Assembly (NCBI GenBank): GCA_019116885.1
Contig: DXAU01000030.1
Location: 62,001-126,000, forward strand
Length of the DNA stretch: 64,000 nucleotides
Reading direction: 5' to 3'
From: Candidatus Mediterraneibacter pullistercoris
GTDB lineage: Bacteria > Bacillota > Clostridia > Lachnospirales > Lachnospiraceae
Position numbers and translations under genes: made by a program. The notes under the pieces are model-generated. The model saw only the letters and a program-made list of their open reading frames with translations, made no database searches and was not told where the DNA came from. Position 1 is the first letter of the stretch. Every line of letters starts with the position of its first letter. Shown piece by piece: positions 28,786-37,309 of the stretch.

Positions 28786-29778
28786 CTAACGCTCCTCGCG
28801 GAAGTAGTTCAGCCCGCAGCTCTTTGGCTGAGCGTGCTCTTTGCTCTGCCGCATACTCGTTACGACCAGCACGATGATCGTAGCCACGTACGGCAGCATA
28901 TCATAGATCTGGGCCGGAAGGCCGGGAATATTGACATACATGCGCATGATCGTAAGCCCTCCGAATATAAGGGCAACGAGCATGCCGCGCGCCGGACTCC
29001 AGGTCGCGAAGATTACAAGGGCAACTGCAAGCCAGCCATAACCGCTGACGCAGTCGTGCACCCACACTCCGGAAGTCGTCACCATGCTCATGTACATGCC
29101 GCCGATCCCGCAGATCCCTCCGCCGATCACAGTCGCAAGGTACTTGTACCGGGCAATGTTGATGCCCGCTGCATCCGCTGTCGCCGGGTCTTCTCCTACC
29201 GCCCGCAGGTTAAGGCCCACCCTGGACCTGGCGAAGAACCATGCCATAACGACCGCCGCAGCGACTGCAAAATAGACGAGCCAGTTATATTGAAAAAGCA
29301 GAGGGCCGAGCACAGGGATATCCGACAGGACGGGGATATCAAGACCTGAGAACGCTTTCTTTGTCACATCTGTCACAGCCACATATCCGCCTGCCTGCTG
29401 CCCGATATATTCGCCGAAAAAGTTGCCGAAGCCCGTTCCGAAGATCGTAAGGGTAAGCCCGGTCACATTCTGGTTCGCGCGAAGCGTGATCGTAAGGAAA
29501 CTGTAGATGAGCGCACCCCCGGCCCCCGCGATAAAGGACGCTGCAAGCGCAATGACCGCTGAGAGGAAACCGTTTGGCTCTCCGCCCCGGGCGAGCACTG
29601 CCTGCTCATAATAATAAGAGCCTGCAAGCCCGGTAATGGCGCCCATGAACATCATACCCTCCACTCCAAGGTTTAAGTTGCCCGCTTTCTCTGTCAGAAT
29701 CTCGCCAAGGGCTCCCAGCAGGAGGGGCGTCCCCGCCAGAACTGCCGCGATAAACAATCCGTTCAATGTACTAAGCAT
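28786..29778 (-). CDS. Nucleoside ABC transporter permease (NupQ/YufQ type)
   Basis: A 330-residue inner-membrane permease of the PnrA/BMP-associated family (BPD_transp_2), which imports purine and pyrimidine nucleosides. It has about 8-9 hydrophobic segments and the conserved GALGEILTEKAGNLNLGVEGMM start and ALAxN-type LTIFGTGFGNF region. It is last in the operon bmp-ATPase-permease-permease, overlapping the previous permease by 8 bp. Substrate is inferred from the family. Confidence 0.88.
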   Translation of the reverse strand: MLSTLNGLFIAAVLAGTPLLLGALGEILTEKAGNLNLGVEGMMFMGAITGLAGSYYYEQAVLARGGEPNGFLSAVIALAASFIAGAGGALIYSFLTITLRANQNVTGLTLTIFGTGFGNFFGEYIGQQAGGYVAVTDVTKKAFSGLDIPVLSDIPVLGPLLFQYNWLVYFAVAAAVVMAWFFARSRVGLNLRAVGEDPATADAAGINIARYKYLATVIGGGICGIGGMYMSMVTTSGVWVHDCVSGYGWLAVALVIFATWSPARGMLVALIFGGLTIMRMYVNIPGLPAQIYDMLPYVATIIVLVVTSMRQSKEHAQPKSCGLNYFREER

Positions 29779-30868
29779 GATGCTCCTCCTTTCCTCTTCT
29801 TATCAGCCGGTATGAGATAAAGAACTCACATCCCAGCATAAAAAACAAGATGATGCCAATCAGAAGATCCGACGCAGACGCCGGGATCTTAAACTGTGTC
29901 TGTATGGCGTTGGAACCGCGTTCCAGCATGGCGATAAACACAGATACGATGAGCATGCCGAAAGGATTCATCTTCGCAAGCCACGCCACTGTGATAGCAG
30001 TGAACCCTACTCCGCCTGCCGTTCCTTCCGTGATGGTATAATCTGCTCCTGCAAACTGGAGCATGCCGACAAGACCGCACAGCGCTCCCGAGATGAACAT
30101 TGTCCGCTTGAACACGCGCCCCACACTGATGCCGGCATACTTTGCCGTATTGTTACTCTCTCCCACGACTGCGATCTCATAGCCCTGCTTCGTCTTATTG
30201 AAATAAAAGTAAGACACCACTACGAGGATCAGTGCGAGTATCCATCCCCAGTGTACGCCGAACACTTTCGTCAGTCTTGCCCCCGGAACGAGCATGTCGA
30301 TCTTGGGGAAACTGCTGCCCTCAGCTTTCCACGGACCATTCATCAGATATTTAATGAATGCCAGAGCTATATAGTTGAGCATCAGAGTGAACAGCGTCTC
30401 ATTCGTCCCCCATTTTGCCTTGCACACTGCCGGGAGGAGGCCGTAGAGACCGCCTGCCACGATAGCTGCCAGCATCATGAGCAGCACCAGCGGGAGCTTC
30501 GGAAAGATATGTGCCGTAAACAGCCCGAAAGCTCCGGCTGCTACTGCCCCGGCCAGTATCTGTCCCTCTCCGCCGATATTCCAGAATTTCATCTTAAAGG
30601 CAAATGAAATGCCGATCGCTGTGATAAGGAGCGGTACAGCGATCTTGACCGTCTCATGGATGACTGTACTGGAGCCCCAGGCTCCTTTTACCATGGATAT
30701 GTAGACGGAAACAGGGTTGTGTCCGAGCATCAGAATCACGATCCCGCCTGTGATCAGAGAGAGGATAAATGCAACAGCCCGTATCCCCCATGCTTTCTGC
30801 TGGGACAGCGCATCTCTTTTTACCATCCTGATAAGAGGCTCTTTTGCCTGTGTAGTATGTGAGCTCAT
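29771..30868 (-). CDS. Nucleoside ABC transporter permease (NupP/YufP type)
   Basis: A 365-residue permease, partner of the previous gene. It has an N-terminal cytoplasmic segment, then about nine hydrophobic segments with the family signature GEGQILAGA and TLMLNYIA. The ATG overlaps the ATPase stop (ATGA), with GGAGG at 8 nt located inside the end of the ATPase gene. The two different permeases are expected to form a heterodimer under the fused ATPase. Confidence 0.88.
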   Translation of the reverse strand: MSSHTTQAKEPLIRMVKRDALSQQKAWGIRAVAFILSLITGGIVILMLGHNPVSVYISMVKGAWGSSTVIHETVKIAVPLLITAIGISFAFKMKFWNIGGEGQILAGAVAAGAFGLFTAHIFPKLPLVLLMMLAAIVAGGLYGLLPAVCKAKWGTNETLFTLMLNYIALAFIKYLMNGPWKAEGSSFPKIDMLVPGARLTKVFGVHWGWILALILVVVSYFYFNKTKQGYEIAVVGESNNTAKYAGISVGRVFKRTMFISGALCGLVGMLQFAGADYTITEGTAGGVGFTAITVAWLAKMNPFGMLIVSVFIAMLERGSNAIQTQFKIPASASDLLIGIILFFMLGCEFFISYRLIRRGKEEHHA

Positions 30869-32436
30869 GCTGTCACCTCCTCATTTTCACTGCCCGGCTC
30901 TCCTTTGCCCGCATGGATCATCATCAGGCCTATGTCTTCTTTCGTCACTCTCCGGGGATCGACGATCCCGCTTACCTTTCCACCGCACATCACCATAATC
31001 CGGTCAGAAAGCTGCATCAGCACGTCAAGATCCTCCCCGATAAAGATGACCGCAACTCCTTTTTTCTTCTGTTCATTGAGAAGGTCATAGATCCGGTAAG
31101 AAGAATTGATGTCAAGTCCTCTGACCGGATAAGCGACAATCAGGACAGACGGCTGGCAGGCAATCTCACGTCCGAGCAGTACTTTCTGCACATTTCCGCC
31201 GGAGAGCCTTCCGACCGGAGTGTCGACTCCCGGTGTCACGATCTCCAGGTCTCCTATCAGCTTTTGGGCCAGTTCCCTCGGCGTCTTCCGGTCTACAAAG
31301 AGCCCTTTTTTTGATTTATAGCTGCGGAGCATGACATTGTCCGTCATGTCCATTCCAGCCACAAGCCCCATGCCGAGACGGTCCTCAGGCACGAACGCCA
31401 TCGAGATTCCTTTCCTGGAGATTTCATCCGGCTTGAGCCCCAGGATGCGCTCCTGGACCTTAATGCCTTCACGTTCTGCCGAATACAGCACAGAACCTCC
31501 GATAGACGGGCACAGCCCTGCAATCGTCTCGCACAGTTCTTTCTGTCCGCTCCCTGCGATCCCGGCCACTCCAAGTATCTCGCCGCCATAAGCTTCAAAG
31601 GACACGTTGTCCAGAGCCTTCACCCCGTCACCGTTTAGACAGGTCAGATCGATCACCTGCAGCCGCTTCTCTCCGCGCTTTACATCCGGCCTTTCGATCT
31701 CCAGGCTGACCGGACGTCCCACCATCATCTCGGTGAGCTGTGCCTGGTCCGTCTTATCCGTATCGACAGCCCCGATGGATTCGCCTTTTCTCAGAATCGC
31801 CACACGGTCCGAGATGGCAAGCACTTCATTTAGTTTATGGGTAATGATGATGATTGATTTCCCGTCCTTTTTCATATTTCTGAGCACTGCAAACAGTTTG
31901 TCCGTCTCCTGCGGCGTCAGTACGGCTGTCGGTTCATCCAGGATCAGGATGTCAGCCCCTTTGTATAGAACTTTGAGGATCTCTACTGTCTGTTTCTCAG
32001 ATACAGACATGTTGTATACTTTCTTGGAAGGATCCAGCTCAAAGCCGTAACGCTCTGCAAGCTCTGCCACTCTCCTGTTTATCTCTTTCCGGTTCACGAC
32101 TGCCTTTCCTTCCAGGCCCAGTACGATATTCTCCGCCGCGGTCAGGACGTCAACAAGTTTAAAATGCTGATGGATCATCCCGATGCCCAGAGCAAACGAA
32201 TCTTTCGGAGACCGTATCGTAACTTCCTTTCCTTTTACGTATATCTCGCCGCGGTCCGGAAAATAGATCCCTGACAGCATATTCATCAGGGTGGTCTTCC
32301 CGCTGCCGTTCTCGCCCAGGAGGGCCAGTATCTCCCCCGTCCTCAGTTCCAGATCAACGTCTTTGTTGGCCGTGACTTTTCCGAAGGTCTTTGTCACATG
32401 ATGCATTTTCACCGCATTTCCCGCTGTCTCTGCCAA
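30865..32436 (-). CDS. Nucleoside ABC transporter ATP-binding protein (two ABC domains)
   Basis: A 523-residue tandem ATPase. Domain 1 has Walker A GENGSGKTT, the variant signature VSEKQTVEI, and Walker B ILILDEPTAVLTP. Domain 2 has a degenerate Walker A (GIAGSGQKE), signature LSGGNVQKVLLGRE, and a Walker B region reading VLIVAYPVRGLD, where the usual EPTRGLD has changed. This asymmetry is typical of the RbsA/YufO class. The start codon is TTG, with AAGGAG at 9 nt. It follows the BMP lipoprotein gene after a stem-loop spacer. Confidence 0.9.
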   Translation of the reverse strand: MAETAGNAVKMHHVTKTFGKVTANKDVDLELRTGEILALLGENGSGKTTLMNMLSGIYFPDRGEIYVKGKEVTIRSPKDSFALGIGMIHQHFKLVDVLTAAENIVLGLEGKAVVNRKEINRRVAELAERYGFELDPSKKVYNMSVSEKQTVEILKVLYKGADILILDEPTAVLTPQETDKLFAVLRNMKKDGKSIIIITHKLNEVLAISDRVAILRKGESIGAVDTDKTDQAQLTEMMVGRPVSLEIERPDVKRGEKRLQVIDLTCLNGDGVKALDNVSFEAYGGEILGVAGIAGSGQKELCETIAGLCPSIGGSVLYSAEREGIKVQERILGLKPDEISRKGISMAFVPEDRLGMGLVAGMDMTDNVMLRSYKSKKGLFVDRKTPRELAQKLIGDLEIVTPGVDTPVGRLSGGNVQKVLLGREIACQPSVLIVAYPVRGLDINSSYRIYDLLNEQKKKGVAVIFIGEDLDVLMQLSDRIMVMCGGKVSGIVDPRRVTKEDIGLMMIHAGKGEPGSENEEVTA

Positions 32437-32540
32437 TTTCCCACACTCCTTTTCTCTATGTATCTCAGTATCCCGCAGTCATCTTTCGTCCCGGCAGGAC
32501 AAAAGCAGAAGTATTCTCCTGTATATGAACCGGAATACAG

Positions 32541-32566
32541 ACAAAGCCGTCCGAAGACGGCTCTGT
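32541..32566 (-). other. Stem-loop with UUCG loop between bmp and the ATPase gene
   Basis: On the minus strand an 11-bp stem (one wobble) closed by a UUCG tetraloop lies 34 bp after the bmp stop. No T-run follows, so it is more likely an mRNA stabiliser that keeps binding-protein mRNA abundant than a full terminator. Confidence 0.6.
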
Positions 32567-32599
32567 TCCTGTAACTATTTGAATCTGTGTCTGTCTCTC

Positions 32600-33772
32600 T
32601 TACTCAACTACATTACAGCCTTCAATGATATACTGCCAGGACGGCGCGGAAGACTCTTCCTGCTCATGGAAATATTCCCCTTCCGGAACTTCATACTCTT
32701 CTCCTTCCGGGCTTACCCCTGAGAGAGGTCCGTCAAATACGTGGAGTTCCCCGGAGATCAGCTTCTCCCGTGCCTCATCGATGGCTTCCTGAGTGCCCTC
32801 AGCCGCGATGTCTGTATTCAGCGGAGACAGATAGACGGCCTCGTCCGCAAGGCCTCTGCACCAGTCTGCAGGAATCGTCTCTCCGTCAATCACAGCCTGA
32901 ACAGCCTCTGTTACATAGATTCCCCAGTCGATACGAGGTGAGATCAGGGACGCTTCCGGAGCGGCCTCGATCATGTCGTTGTTATATCCTACCTGCCATA
33001 CGCCGTTCTCCTCTGCCGTAGTAGCAGGAGCTGTTGAATCGGAGTGCTGGGAGATCACGTCGCATCCGCGGTCAATGAGCGCTTTTGCCACCTGGGATTC
33101 CACCGTAGGATCATTCCAGGAGTTCGTGTACATGATGTCCATGGTAACGTCAGGGTTCACACTCTTTGCGCCCAGATAAAACGCTGTGTAGCCGCTGATG
33201 ACTTCGGCAAACGGAAACGCTGCCACATAACCGAGCTTGTTCGACTCTGTTTTAAGGCCTGCCGCGATGCCTGCCAGATAGCGTCCTTCATAGATGGAAG
33301 CGAAATAGTTGTGGAAGTTGTCAAGTCCTGAATCTGCCGCCTGATGTCCTGTCGCATGACAGAACTGGATATCCGGATACTCCGCCGCCACTTCTTTTAC
33401 ATAATCTTCAAAACCAAAACTTGTGGCAAATATGATATTGCATCCGGCGTCCACAAGTTCTCTGAGAGCCGTATCACACTCCGCGCCTTCCGGCACGTTA
33501 TATTTGTTCACGATCTGGTCGTCGCTCAGGCCAAGAGCCTCCTGCATCTCCTGTGTTCCCAGATCATGGTTGTATGTGTACCCCATATCGCTTGGATCTG
33601 ACACGTGTACGAATCCTACCTTGATCTCATCTGCCGGAATCCCCTCAGATGATGCGGAAGAAGAGCCTCCCTCTTCACTGCCTCCAGTTTCCGCCGCCGG
33701 AGCTCCGCACCCCGCAATCAGGGTGACTGCCATAGCTGCGCACAAGAATACGCTGATGATCTTCTTTTTCAT
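32600..33772 (-). CDS. BMP-family nucleoside-binding lipoprotein
   Basis: A 390-residue lipoprotein: signal peptide with lipobox LIAGC (lipidated cysteine about residue 22), a Ser/Gly/Glu-rich linker, then a PnrA/basic membrane protein domain beginning IKVGFVHVSDPSDMG. It captures nucleosides outside the cell for the permeases encoded downstream. ATG 33772 has AGGAGG at 6 nt; the longer frame is not supported. It is first in its operon and likely most expressed. The C-terminal region EEYEVPEGEYFHEQEES is extended and acidic. Confidence 0.92.
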   Translation of the reverse strand: MKKKIISVFLCAAMAVTLIAGCGAPAAETGGSEEGGSSSASSEGIPADEIKVGFVHVSDPSDMGYTYNHDLGTQEMQEALGLSDDQIVNKYNVPEGAECDTALRELVDAGCNIIFATSFGFEDYVKEVAAEYPDIQFCHATGHQAADSGLDNFHNYFASIYEGRYLAGIAAGLKTESNKLGYVAAFPFAEVISGYTAFYLGAKSVNPDVTMDIMYTNSWNDPTVESQVAKALIDRGCDVISQHSDSTAPATTAEENGVWQVGYNNDMIEAAPEASLISPRIDWGIYVTEAVQAVIDGETIPADWCRGLADEAVYLSPLNTDIAAEGTQEAIDEAREKLISGELHVFDGPLSGVSPEGEEYEVPEGEYFHEQEESSAPSWQYIIEGCNVVE

Positions 33773-33892
33773 ATTTTTCCTCCTTTTTCTGCCTCTGTCC
33801 GGACATCTGTCCGGATCTCTGCCTGGTCCGTTATAAAAAATGCTATCCCCATGCAAGAAAATGTGTTCTTCCAGATGGACAGCTCCAAATGT

Positions 33893-33956: not shown

Positions 33957-33975
33957 GGGGATCTATTCGATCCCC
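33957..33975 (-). terminator. Terminator overlapping the copA/copZ stop
   Basis: On the minus strand GGGGATC-GAATA-GATCCCC is followed by TTTTT and, a little further, a T7 run. The stop codon TAG lies at the edge of the loop. Confidence 0.75.
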
Positions 33976-34172
33976 AGTACCTTGTAGTCCTGATCTTCAA
34001 CTGCTTTTGTGAGCACATCGTCCCCTACTTCACTGTTCAGCGTGACCACCGCTGTTCCCGATTCGTGGCTTACCTCTGCCCCGCCGACTCCTGAAACCGC
34101 TTCGAGCGCCTTTTTCACCCGCGCCTCACAGTGTCCGCACATCATTCCCTCGATCTTCATTGTTTTTGTCAT
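33963..34172 (-). CDS. copZ: Copper chaperone CopZ nested in frame at the 3' end of copA
   Basis: Within the copA frame, ATG 34172 has a perfect AAGGAGG (34181-34187) at 8 nt and begins a complete 69-residue heavy-metal-associated domain with the copper-binding GMMCGHC (C12, C15). Translation from this internal start would yield a stand-alone CopZ-type chaperone. The same bases are also read through as the C-terminal domain of CopA. The internal start is a prediction from the ribosome-binding site; stand-alone CopZ is standard in related csoR-copA-copZ operons. Confidence 0.7.
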
Positions 34173-36503
34173 TGTTGTTTCCTCCTTTTTCTTTCTGACT
34201 CTTACTTTTTTATCCCTGCGGGCATCATACATTTTGAACCAGTTAAGTCTCAGCGCATTGCCCACCACGCACACGCTCGAAAGACTCATCGCCGCCGCTC
34301 CGAACATCGGATTCAACTGCCATCCGAACAGAGGAATCCACACTCCGGCCGCCAGCGGGATGCCGATCACATTGTAGAAAAATGCCCAGAAGAGATTTTC
34401 ATGGATATTCCTCAGCGCAGCCCTGCTTAAACGAATCGCGGCGGGAACGTCGCTTAGCCTGCTCTTCATAAGGACAACGTCTGCCGCATCAATGGCAATG
34501 TCTGTACCCGCTCCTATGGCAATGCCTGTATCAGCTCTTGTAAGGGCGGGAGCGTCATTTATGCCGTCCCCTACCATGGCGACTCTGCCTTTCTTCTTCA
34601 GAGCGCGTATTACGCTCTCTTTCCCGTCGGGCAGGACTCCTGCGATGACTTCGTCAACGCCTGCCTGGACTCCGATCGCTTTCGCCGTGCGCTCATTATC
34701 GCCTGTGATCATTACAACATGGATGCCCATATCCTGAAGTTCTTTTACTGCCTGCGGGCTGTCTTCCTTGATCACATCCGCAACTGCGATAATGCCGATG
34801 AGCGTTCCTTCCCGGCTGAAAAACAGCGGTGTCTTGCCTTCTTCTGCCAGTTTTTGCGCCGTTTTCTCTGTCTCTGTCGATATCTCCGTGTTCTGCCGTA
34901 TAAACTTCAGATTGCCTCCGCAGACAAGAGCGCCTGAGAGCATGCCCGAAAGACCGTTTCCCGGTACGGCGCGGAAATCTTCTGCTTCCTCTTCATATGA
35001 GATGCCGGATTCCTCCGCCTTTACAAGAATTGCGCGGGAAAGCGGATGCTCACTCTTTTTCTCCAGAGCGCAGGCATATGAGAGAAGTTCTTCTTCTGTC
35101 ACTCCATCCGCAGGTATCATGTCCGTTACTCTCGGCTCGCCGCTTGTGATCGTCCCGGTCTTATCCAGAGCAACGATCTGTGTCTTTCCTGTCTCTTCAA
35201 GAGAGACTGCTGTTTTAAACATGATCCCGTTCTTCGCGCCCATTCCGTTGCCTACCATGATTGCCACCGGTGTGGCAAGCCCGAGCGCACACGGACAGCT
35301 TATTACGAGTACGGAAATTCCCCTCGCAAGAGCAAATCCAATCGTCTGGCCTGCAATAAGCCATACACTCATAGTCACAACAGCGATGGCAATCACTGCC
35401 GGGACAAAGACGCCGGACACCCTGTCCGCAACTTTGGCAATGGGAGCCTTTGTGGCCGCCGCATCACTGACCATCTGGATGATCTGGGAGAGCGTCGTGT
35501 CCTCTCCCACCCGGGAAGCTTCACACCGCAGGAACCCTGACTGGTTCAAAGTAGCTGCCGAGACCAGATCTCCCGCATGCTTATCCACCGGTATGCTCTC
35601 TCCGGTGAGCGCTGATTCATTGACTGCACTGCAGCCCTCAAGCACGATCCCGTCCACCGGGATATTCTCTCCGGGTCTTACAACGAACACATCTCCTTTT
35701 CTCACCTGTTCGATGGAAACCTCAGTCTCAACGCCATTCCTCACGACTACTGCCGTTTTCGGGGCCAGTTTCATCAGGCTCTTGAGAGCGTCTGTCGTGC
35801 GCCCTTTGGATCTCGCCTCAAGCATCTTTCCAACTGTAATCAGCGTCAGAATCATGGCCGCCGACTCAAAGTAAAACTCATGCATGTAGGACATGACGCC
35901 GGCCATATCGCCCCTCATCTGCGCATCTGTCATGGCAAAAAGGGCGTAAATACTGTATCCGTATGACGCGCCTGCCCCCAGAGCCACAAGCGTATCCATA
36001 TTGGGCGCCCTGTGGATCAGGCCTTTGAATCCACTGATAAAAAACTTCTGGTTGACCACCATGACTGCTGTTGTGAGAAGGAGCTGGATAATTCCCATCG
36101 CTACGTGGTTTCCTGCAAGGAACGATGGCACCGGCCAGTCCCACATCATATGACCCATGGAAAAATACATCAGCGGGATGAGAAAACATAATGATGCGAT
36201 AAGACGGCGCTTCATCTTCGGCGTCTCCCTGTCTTTCAGAGAATCAGCCGCCTCTTCCGCGGATGCTCCGGTCTTCCCCCGGGTGCGCTCACCCGGGCGG
36301 TCTGCTCCTTTTTCCGAAGCGCCGTATCCCGCCTGCTCCACAGCCGCAATAATATCGCCCGGGGACGCCGTCCCCTCCACGCCCATAGAGTTTGTCAGAA
36401 GACTGACAGAGCACGAGGTGACTCCCGGAACTTTGGAAACGGCTTTTTCAACACTGGCGCTGCAGGCCGCGCAGCTCATACCTGTTACGTTATACTGTTC
36501 CAT
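33963..36503 (-). CDS. copA: Copper-exporting P1B-type ATPase with N- and C-terminal HMA domains
   Basis: An 846-residue Cu(+) efflux pump. The N-terminal HMA domain has GMSCAAC (C11, C14). Eight membrane helices follow, with TGES in the actuator, [12 protein letters not shown] (ion-binding CPC), DKTGTITSG (phosphorylated aspartate), EHPLS and [10 protein letters not shown]. After the last helix there is a basic linker (KKKEETT) and a second HMA domain (778-846, C789, C792). This is unusual, since P1B ATPases normally carry HMA domains only at the N-terminus. The linker codons are the ribosome-binding site of the nested copZ, suggesting loss of the original copA stop. It follows csoR by 17 bp. 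Confidence 0.95.
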
Positions 36504-36520
36504 ATAAAACCTCCCAAAAC

Positions 36521-36856
36521 CTATTTCATTAATTTCTGGAGAACAAGGACAAGTTCATCTACAAGATCATCTTTGCCCTCCCGGATGTCCTCTGCCACAC
36601 AGGTGCGGATATGCTCTGCCAGCAGCACTTTATTAAAACTGTTGAGAGCTGCATTGACCGCAGATACCTGTATCAGAATATCCGGACAGTAGACATCGTT
36701 TTCCACCATCCGCCTTATTCCCCTTACCTGGCCCTCAATACGGCTCAGCCTGTTCAGCATATCACGGCGCTCTTTTTCAGTGCGTTCTTTCATCTTGTGG
36801 CTGCATGCAGGACAGGCTTTGTTCAGTTCTTCTGTATCGTTATTTCTGATATCCAT
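36521..36856 (-). CDS. csoR: Copper-sensing repressor CsoR
   Basis: A 111-residue all-helical DUF156 repressor. The Cu(+) site residues are C57, H82 and C86 (VYCPD, EHIRTC). An extra CPAC motif (C15, C18) sits in the N-terminal arm. It represses its own operon until copper binds. ATG 36856 has AAGGAG at 8 nt; an ATG two codons earlier is too close. It is first gene of csoR-copA(-copZ), with two GTACCCC-like operators upstream. Related FrmR/RcnR proteins lack this exact residue set. Confidence 0.92.
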
Positions 36857-36875
36857 AACCATTCTCCTTGCTTTT

Positions 36876-36961: not shown

Positions 36962-37309
36962 TTAAAGTTTTTCTTCCCACTCCTTTTCTCTGAAACCTAC
37001 CAGCACTGTTTCTCCGTCTGTGAGAATCGGGCGTTTTACAAGCATGCCGTCAGTAGAAAGAAGCCGGAACTGCTCCGCTTCGCTCATCTCCGGGAGCCGG
37101 TCTTTTAATTTCATCTCTTTATACAGATTGCCGCTTGTATTGAAAAATCTTTTCAGGGGAAGGCCGCTCTTCCTCTGCCACTCTCTGAGTTCCTCTTCTG
37201 TCGGATGATCTGTCCTGATGTCTCTGGCCTCGTAATCCTTTCCTTTTTCATCGAGCCATTTCTGCGCCTTTTTGCACGTGCTGCATTTCGGATAACATAC
37301 AAATAGCAT
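36962..37309 (-). CDS. ArsC/Spx-family thioredoxin-fold protein
   Basis: A 115-residue protein with the N-terminal redox motif CSTCKKAQ (C9, C12) and the family segments RDIRTDHPTEEEL, FNTSGNLYKEMKLKD and MLVKRPI. This is the ArsC/YffB/Spx group. True arsenate reductases have a single active cysteine with downstream arginines, and Spx binds RNA polymerase; the CxxC and conserved RP motif do not settle which applies. No ars genes are adjacent. It lies head-to-head with the flavodiiron protein gene, which may point to a stress role. Confidence 0.8.
   Translation of the reverse strand: MLFVCYPKCSTCKKAQKWLDEKGKDYEARDIRTDHPTEEELREWQRKSGLPLKRFFNTSGNLYKEMKLKDRLPEMSEAEQFRLLSTDGMLVKRPILTDGETVLVGFREKEWEEKL

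Follow-up and report, generated by a model that had tools for sequence, protein, structure and literature searches.

Does the copper-pump gene of this locus encode one protein or two? In the window, a stretch of 64,000 nucleotides from Candidatus Mediterraneibacter pullistercoris, the copA frame runs without an internal stop through a second, C-terminal HMA domain, and a perfect Shine-Dalgarno motif followed by an in-frame ATG lies just ahead of that domain. We asked whether the frame is a plain fusion or also holds a nested copZ with its own start. The features on which the argument turns are listed below.

33963 to 36503, minus strand: copA with a fused C-terminal CopZ domain, 846 amino acids (open reading frame without internal stop; Pfam)
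36324 to 36494, minus strand: N-terminal HMA domain, GMSCAAC (PF00403, 64.9 bits)
33996 to 34163, minus strand: C-terminal HMA domain (PF00403, 51.3 bits)
34173 to 34244, minus strand: linker from the end of the pump body (after NALRL) to the internal start (sequence; relatives compared)
34181 to 34187, minus strand: internal Shine-Dalgarno motif AAGGAGG, 8 nt before the internal ATG
34170 to 34172, minus strand: internal in-frame start codon ATG, Met778 of CopA
33963 to 34172, minus strand: nested copZ, 69 amino acids, GMMCGHC, sharing its stop with copA
36510 to 36515, minus strand: GGGAGG, Shine-Dalgarno-like, before the main copA start (sequence)
36521 to 36862, minus strand: gene for a CsoR-type metal-sensing repressor, 17 nt upstream of copA (PF02583, E 6.7e-31)

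The copA product combines a P-type ATPase body (Pfam E1-E2_ATPase and Hydrolase) with two HMA domains and a CPC motif, which we take to be the mark of P1B-1 copper ATPases, and among solved chains it comes nearest to copper ATPases, such as 3rfu and 3j09. Homology and the CsoR-type neighbor suggest that CopA transports Cu(I). The nested 69 residues, taken alone, match PF00403 with an E-value of 8.4e-14 (52 bits), and their matches among solved chains include the CopZ/HMA chains 6ff2 and 2qif; their length and GMxCxxC site are those of CopZ or Atx1-type proteins, HMA proteins of about 70 residues. The initial annotation had described a second HMA domain at the CopA C-terminus and, eight bases after AAGGAGG, an in-frame ATG opening a complete 69-residue CopZ; both readings hold, the first through the PF00403 match at 33996-34163 and the second in the sequence from 34187 to 33963, where the spacer between AAGGAGG (34187-34181) and the ATG reads AAACAACA. 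The minus-strand frames that follow copA (28786-33856) resemble, by eye, a nucleoside-type ABC transporter with a lipoprotein, an ATPase and two permeases, and a frame upstream of csoR on the same strand (36962-37309) resembles an ArsC/Spx-type protein, also by eye.

The comparison of copA 3' ends that the initial annotation had proposed returned the same arrangement throughout the genus. Among 58 genomes searched, the fusion and the site are present at every one of the 50 nonredundant loci whose 3' end could be read. Left out are G007, which looked unfused but in which copA is cut at a contig end, and G010, in which the frame changes; other genomes gave no close full-length match among the matches listed. 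The G010 gene is split over three reading frames, corresponding to a broken gene or to assembly errors. Since 50 of 50 readable nonredundant genus loci are fused and site-bearing, a sequencing or assembly error that removed a stop codon is ruled out.

Beyond the genus, we compared 300 nonredundant CopA loci drawn from genus, family, class and named contigs (kept from 328 after removal of those with identical last 1200 nt, no stop in the piece or too little pump match), of which 288 are fused to a C-terminal HMA domain and 12 are split. Of these 288 fused loci, which come from Lachnospiraceae and other Clostridia, 277 have a start codon with a Shine-Dalgarno motif. We called a locus start-bearing when a start codon stood in the right place and its Shine-Dalgarno pairing reached -6 kcal/mol or better; 276 were called by script and one, L081, by hand, its Shine-Dalgarno motif and ATG lying further upstream. 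One locus, L309, passes the energy cut without a recognizable motif. The samples comprised the 50 genus loci, the best 80 named loci and 128 family loci among the matches listed (397 genomes searched, 381 matching at 1e-100). All 232 loci of the family and named set are fused, a share that is biased upward because these loci are the top of rankings by similarity to the fused protein. The class sample was collected with the pump part alone as query (matches in 152 of 196 genomes, from which 70 top-scoring loci were read, 68 of them nonredundant), and 56 of its 68 loci are fused, 53 of them with the start. Outside the class, 92 of 119 genomes of the phylum gave matches, and we read the top 29 loci, two of them already among the class loci; 7 of the other 27 are fused and have a Shine-Dalgarno-like sequence ahead of an ATG, as judged by eye and weak in some.

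These distributions revise one proposal of the initial annotation, that copA had lost its stop codon from an ancestral copA-copZ pair. As a strain-level event the loss is not upheld, the fused gene with its internal site being present in all 50 genus loci, and the site in most of the fused loci from other families. An ancestral pair separated by a stop is possible, as copZ lies just downstream, within the examined stretch, in 6 of the 12 split loci; a direction of change finds no support. Split loci are scattered among fused ones on the tree, which has long branches and no known root, and we therefore claim no direction between the two states.

The nucleotides of the site bear the mark of selection. 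In the start-bearing loci the linker varies in sequence and in length, from 9 to 79 residues (median 27). For the codon test we chose the Met in 277 loci solely from how far it lies from the metal site, without reference to the Shine-Dalgarno motif. Glu at codon -4 is encoded by GAG in 230 loci and GAA in 12, against 44:262 at seven other linker codons, and Lys at codon -5 by AAG in 147 and AAA in 15, against 119:394 at other linker codons. After thinning to representatives at 75% identity (110 clusters, of which 93 have such a Met), the sole correction for descent in the codon tests, GAG:GAA at codon -4 is 65:4 versus 16:83 elsewhere in the linker, and AAG:AAA at codon -5 is 41:12 versus 28:134. 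The third base of codon -5 is G in 197 of 224 loci and its first two bases vary, the forms being AAG, GAG, CAG, ATG, TTG, GCG, ACG, CCG, GTG and TCG; variable first two bases with a largely constant third are the reverse of what a constraint on the protein would give.

The motif has also moved relative to the frame. All three codon phases are represented (99, 20 and 1 of the 120 tree rows with a recognized motif), with at least 15 phase changes on a quick tree with many weak forks, and in some lineages the motif in another phase encodes other amino acids. The start codon lies 8 nt downstream in 202 of the 223 family-set loci with the motif. At L276, a single case, GTG replaces ATG, suggesting that what is kept is a start codon and not a methionine. 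Within the genus alignment of 50 loci, the window of highest synonymous conservation in all of copA comprises residues 772-779, and the 12 highest-ranking windows all fall within residues 768-784 and 8-18. The latter segment (36450-36482), second highest in synonymous conservation, lies near the main start and the first metal site. As judged from these comparisons, the internal site is no passive relic, its Shine-Dalgarno motif being conserved at the nucleotide level and the surrounding linker not.

We also examined pairing with the 16S tail. For 225 relatives that have a Met in this region, we took the best Met codon among those lying 5-13 residues ahead of the metal site; pairing is -8 kcal/mol or better in 223 of them, compared with 8.4% of 6,522 other internal Met codons of those genes. 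Of 7 related genomes tested for the 16S tail, GGATCACCTCCTTTCT, 4 have it, and its pattern was not found in the draft genome of the window itself. AGGAGG-N5-10-ATG occurs 18 times in the window versus 5.2 expected from shuffles, and is thus a pattern typical of starts in this DNA. Synonymous shuffles of each gene are weak evidence taken singly (8.9% of the 225 genes reach p 0.05; the mean is -11.1 in the real genes and -8.1 after shuffling), because Lys/Glu-rich linkers often permit such a motif. A chance motif was considered and rejected on the position-specific GAG and AAG bias at codons -4 and -5. Across 276 loci the start region is weakly structured, averaging -1.0 kcal/mol where other windows of these genes average -11.1 kcal/mol, as is expected of an A-rich linker as well as of a ribosome entry site.

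Eleven fused loci lack a usable start. A separate HMA frame lies just downstream of copA in 7 of these 11, versus 2 of 267 start-bearing loci in which at least 250 nt could be read downstream (ten with under 250 nt were left out of the table); the Fisher p is 5e-10 with kinship ignored. On the tree, the seven loci correspond to six changes, at least three of which are forced by well-supported branches. Only six independent pairs are available on supported branches, and in most pairings three agree, none opposes and three are equal, which is not significant. No downstream HMA gene is present at the start-less loci L136, L288, L290 and L310. The start-less L121 groups (support 93, not starred) with L117 and L126, two loci that possess the start as well as the downstream gene, as though the extra gene had preceded loss of the start. 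The downstream protein has a CGMC site in seven of the nine loci (L090, L117, L121, L126, L135, L138 and L163), most of these with a Lys-rich C-terminal extension; with this site and extension, the downstream proteins are not simple copies of the nested CopZ.

An HMA frame upstream of copA, seen at L288, was considered as a second route of replacement and set aside, as 12 start-bearing fused loci also have one (at least 300 nt of upstream DNA were available for 255 of the 300 loci). These small frames lie at L069, L079, L105, L106, L114, L115, L145, L222, L224, L242, L252 and L276, and several of the 12 are of the GMHCxxCK type.

In the draft genome of the window (92.4% complete), no other CopZ was recognized among the remaining HMA matches. 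These are a 160-residue frame with a Cys-rich part resembling FeoB-associated proteins, below the family cut-off, and a 72-residue frame just before another P-type ATPase. The 160-residue frame is on contig C27 of this genome (L002:1216-1698) and adjoins a frame that looks Fur-like by eye. Ten start-bearing genomes were checked and none has an HMA frame directly downstream of copA; several of them have unclassified HMA frames elsewhere, for instance one of 82 residues in G437.

Taken with the conserved Shine-Dalgarno motif and start codon inside a longer frame, as expected of a gene with in-frame internal initiation, these data make it highly probable that copA yields two proteins, a CopA with a tethered CopZ and a free CopZ. 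Ribosomes starting at the copA ATG would produce the pump with its C-terminally tethered CopZ domain, and ribosomes binding the internal Shine-Dalgarno motif would start at Met778 and produce the free 69-residue chaperone. The free form could then deliver Cu(I) to the pump or to a sensor, and the tethered form would serve its own pump. Ribosome use of the site, the existence of both products, and their ratio and division of labor are what we infer from the comparisons; the initial annotation had likewise proposed one frame with two products by internal initiation, and the comparative support for that proposal is strong. We count against internal initiation that ribosomes already translating CopA might obstruct entry at this inner start.

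Three other explanations have to be weighed. The one that fares best keeps the internal site and changes the messenger: free CopZ would be made from it mainly via a separate short transcript starting inside copA. Such a transcript would use the same conserved site. In its favor, Drees 2017, which with Meydan 2017 is associated with the E. coli copA frameshift, has 'differential transcript formation' in its title. A conserved promoter within copA should leave a second peak of synonymous conservation, and none marks one in the genus alignment, though a promoter in the A-rich linker is conceivable; we regard a short transcript as the main source of free CopZ as unlikely.

Less likely still is a plain domain fusion with a single product, in which the linker would be a charged spacer and the Shine-Dalgarno motif and ATG a relic of an old gene pair or the work of chance. 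CopA proteins with a C-terminal metal-binding domain of the HMA type are known elsewhere, that of A. fulgidus reportedly among them, and we know of no internal start claimed there. Lys and Glu codons, moreover, can spell the motif by chance. Against this stand a GAG/AAG bias that is specific to position and confined to two codons, retention of the motif through changes of codon phase, the long divergence of the linker, and synonymous conservation that peaks at the site within the genus. We give almost no weight to the third explanation, that the Shine-Dalgarno motif is an elongation pause that aids folding of the last membrane helices or the HMA domain without initiation: the motif does come soon after the last membrane-spanning part, but pausing leaves unexplained the start codon 8 nt downstream, the GTG of L276 and the enrichment of separate HMA genes at start-less loci.

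Internal initiation thus being the favored reading for the window, its extension to relatives is probable, if less secure. In much of Clostridia and in some families outside it, copZ would be nested in copA behind a conserved internal start, so that one message supplies the chaperone in tethered and in free form; this nested gene would be the CopZ 'missing' from gut Clostridiales, and ribosomes crossing the site may set the ratio of the two forms. The ratio is here a matter of inference, and the sites outside the class were recognized by eye. Gut Clostridiales have been reported to be without CopZ, and the word 'fused' is absent from the main text of that report (PMC4938975). A nested copZ, if real, could explain the reported absence, and would represent a second two-product route for a copper-pump gene, mechanistically unlike the E. 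coli frameshift. The codon test could reveal other nested genes, and the nested start is directly testable in culturable commensals, carriers of the site including Mediterraneibacter massiliensis (L207) and [Ruminococcus] torques ATCC 27756 (L235). A weak literature search, covering titles and the starts of abstracts with subscription journals mostly outside it, returned no earlier report of internal initiation in copA and no paper joining internal translation initiation with a P-type ATPase.

One of the closest known systems is cas8b, from which Cas11b arises by internal in-frame initiation (PMC11899642). There, as proposed here, initiation at an internal in-frame Met additionally yields the C-terminal part of a protein by itself; the functions are unrelated, and the Cas11b product has been shown experimentally, whereas free CopZ is predicted from sequence. 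Also close are the separate copA and copZ genes, with csoR-copA-copZ and copZA operons named in PMC4938975. These encode the same proteins with a CsoR-type repressor nearby, and copZ follows copA in 6 of the 12 split relatives; the gene of the window differs in that no stop stands between the two and the pump carries a tethered copy. Finally, the initial annotation had pointed to the programmed frameshift in E. coli copA, in agreement with PMC10187127, in which E. coli copA produces a chaperone by programmed ribosomal frameshifting and the chaperone is elsewhere typically encoded by its own gene. E. coli copA and the gene of the window would be alike in drawing a second, chaperone-type product from one copper-pump gene, and would differ in how they do so: E. 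coli CopA(Z) reportedly comprises the N-terminal metal-binding domain and arises by a frameshift to a stop, whereas the copA of the window would release its C-terminal domain from an in-frame internal start.
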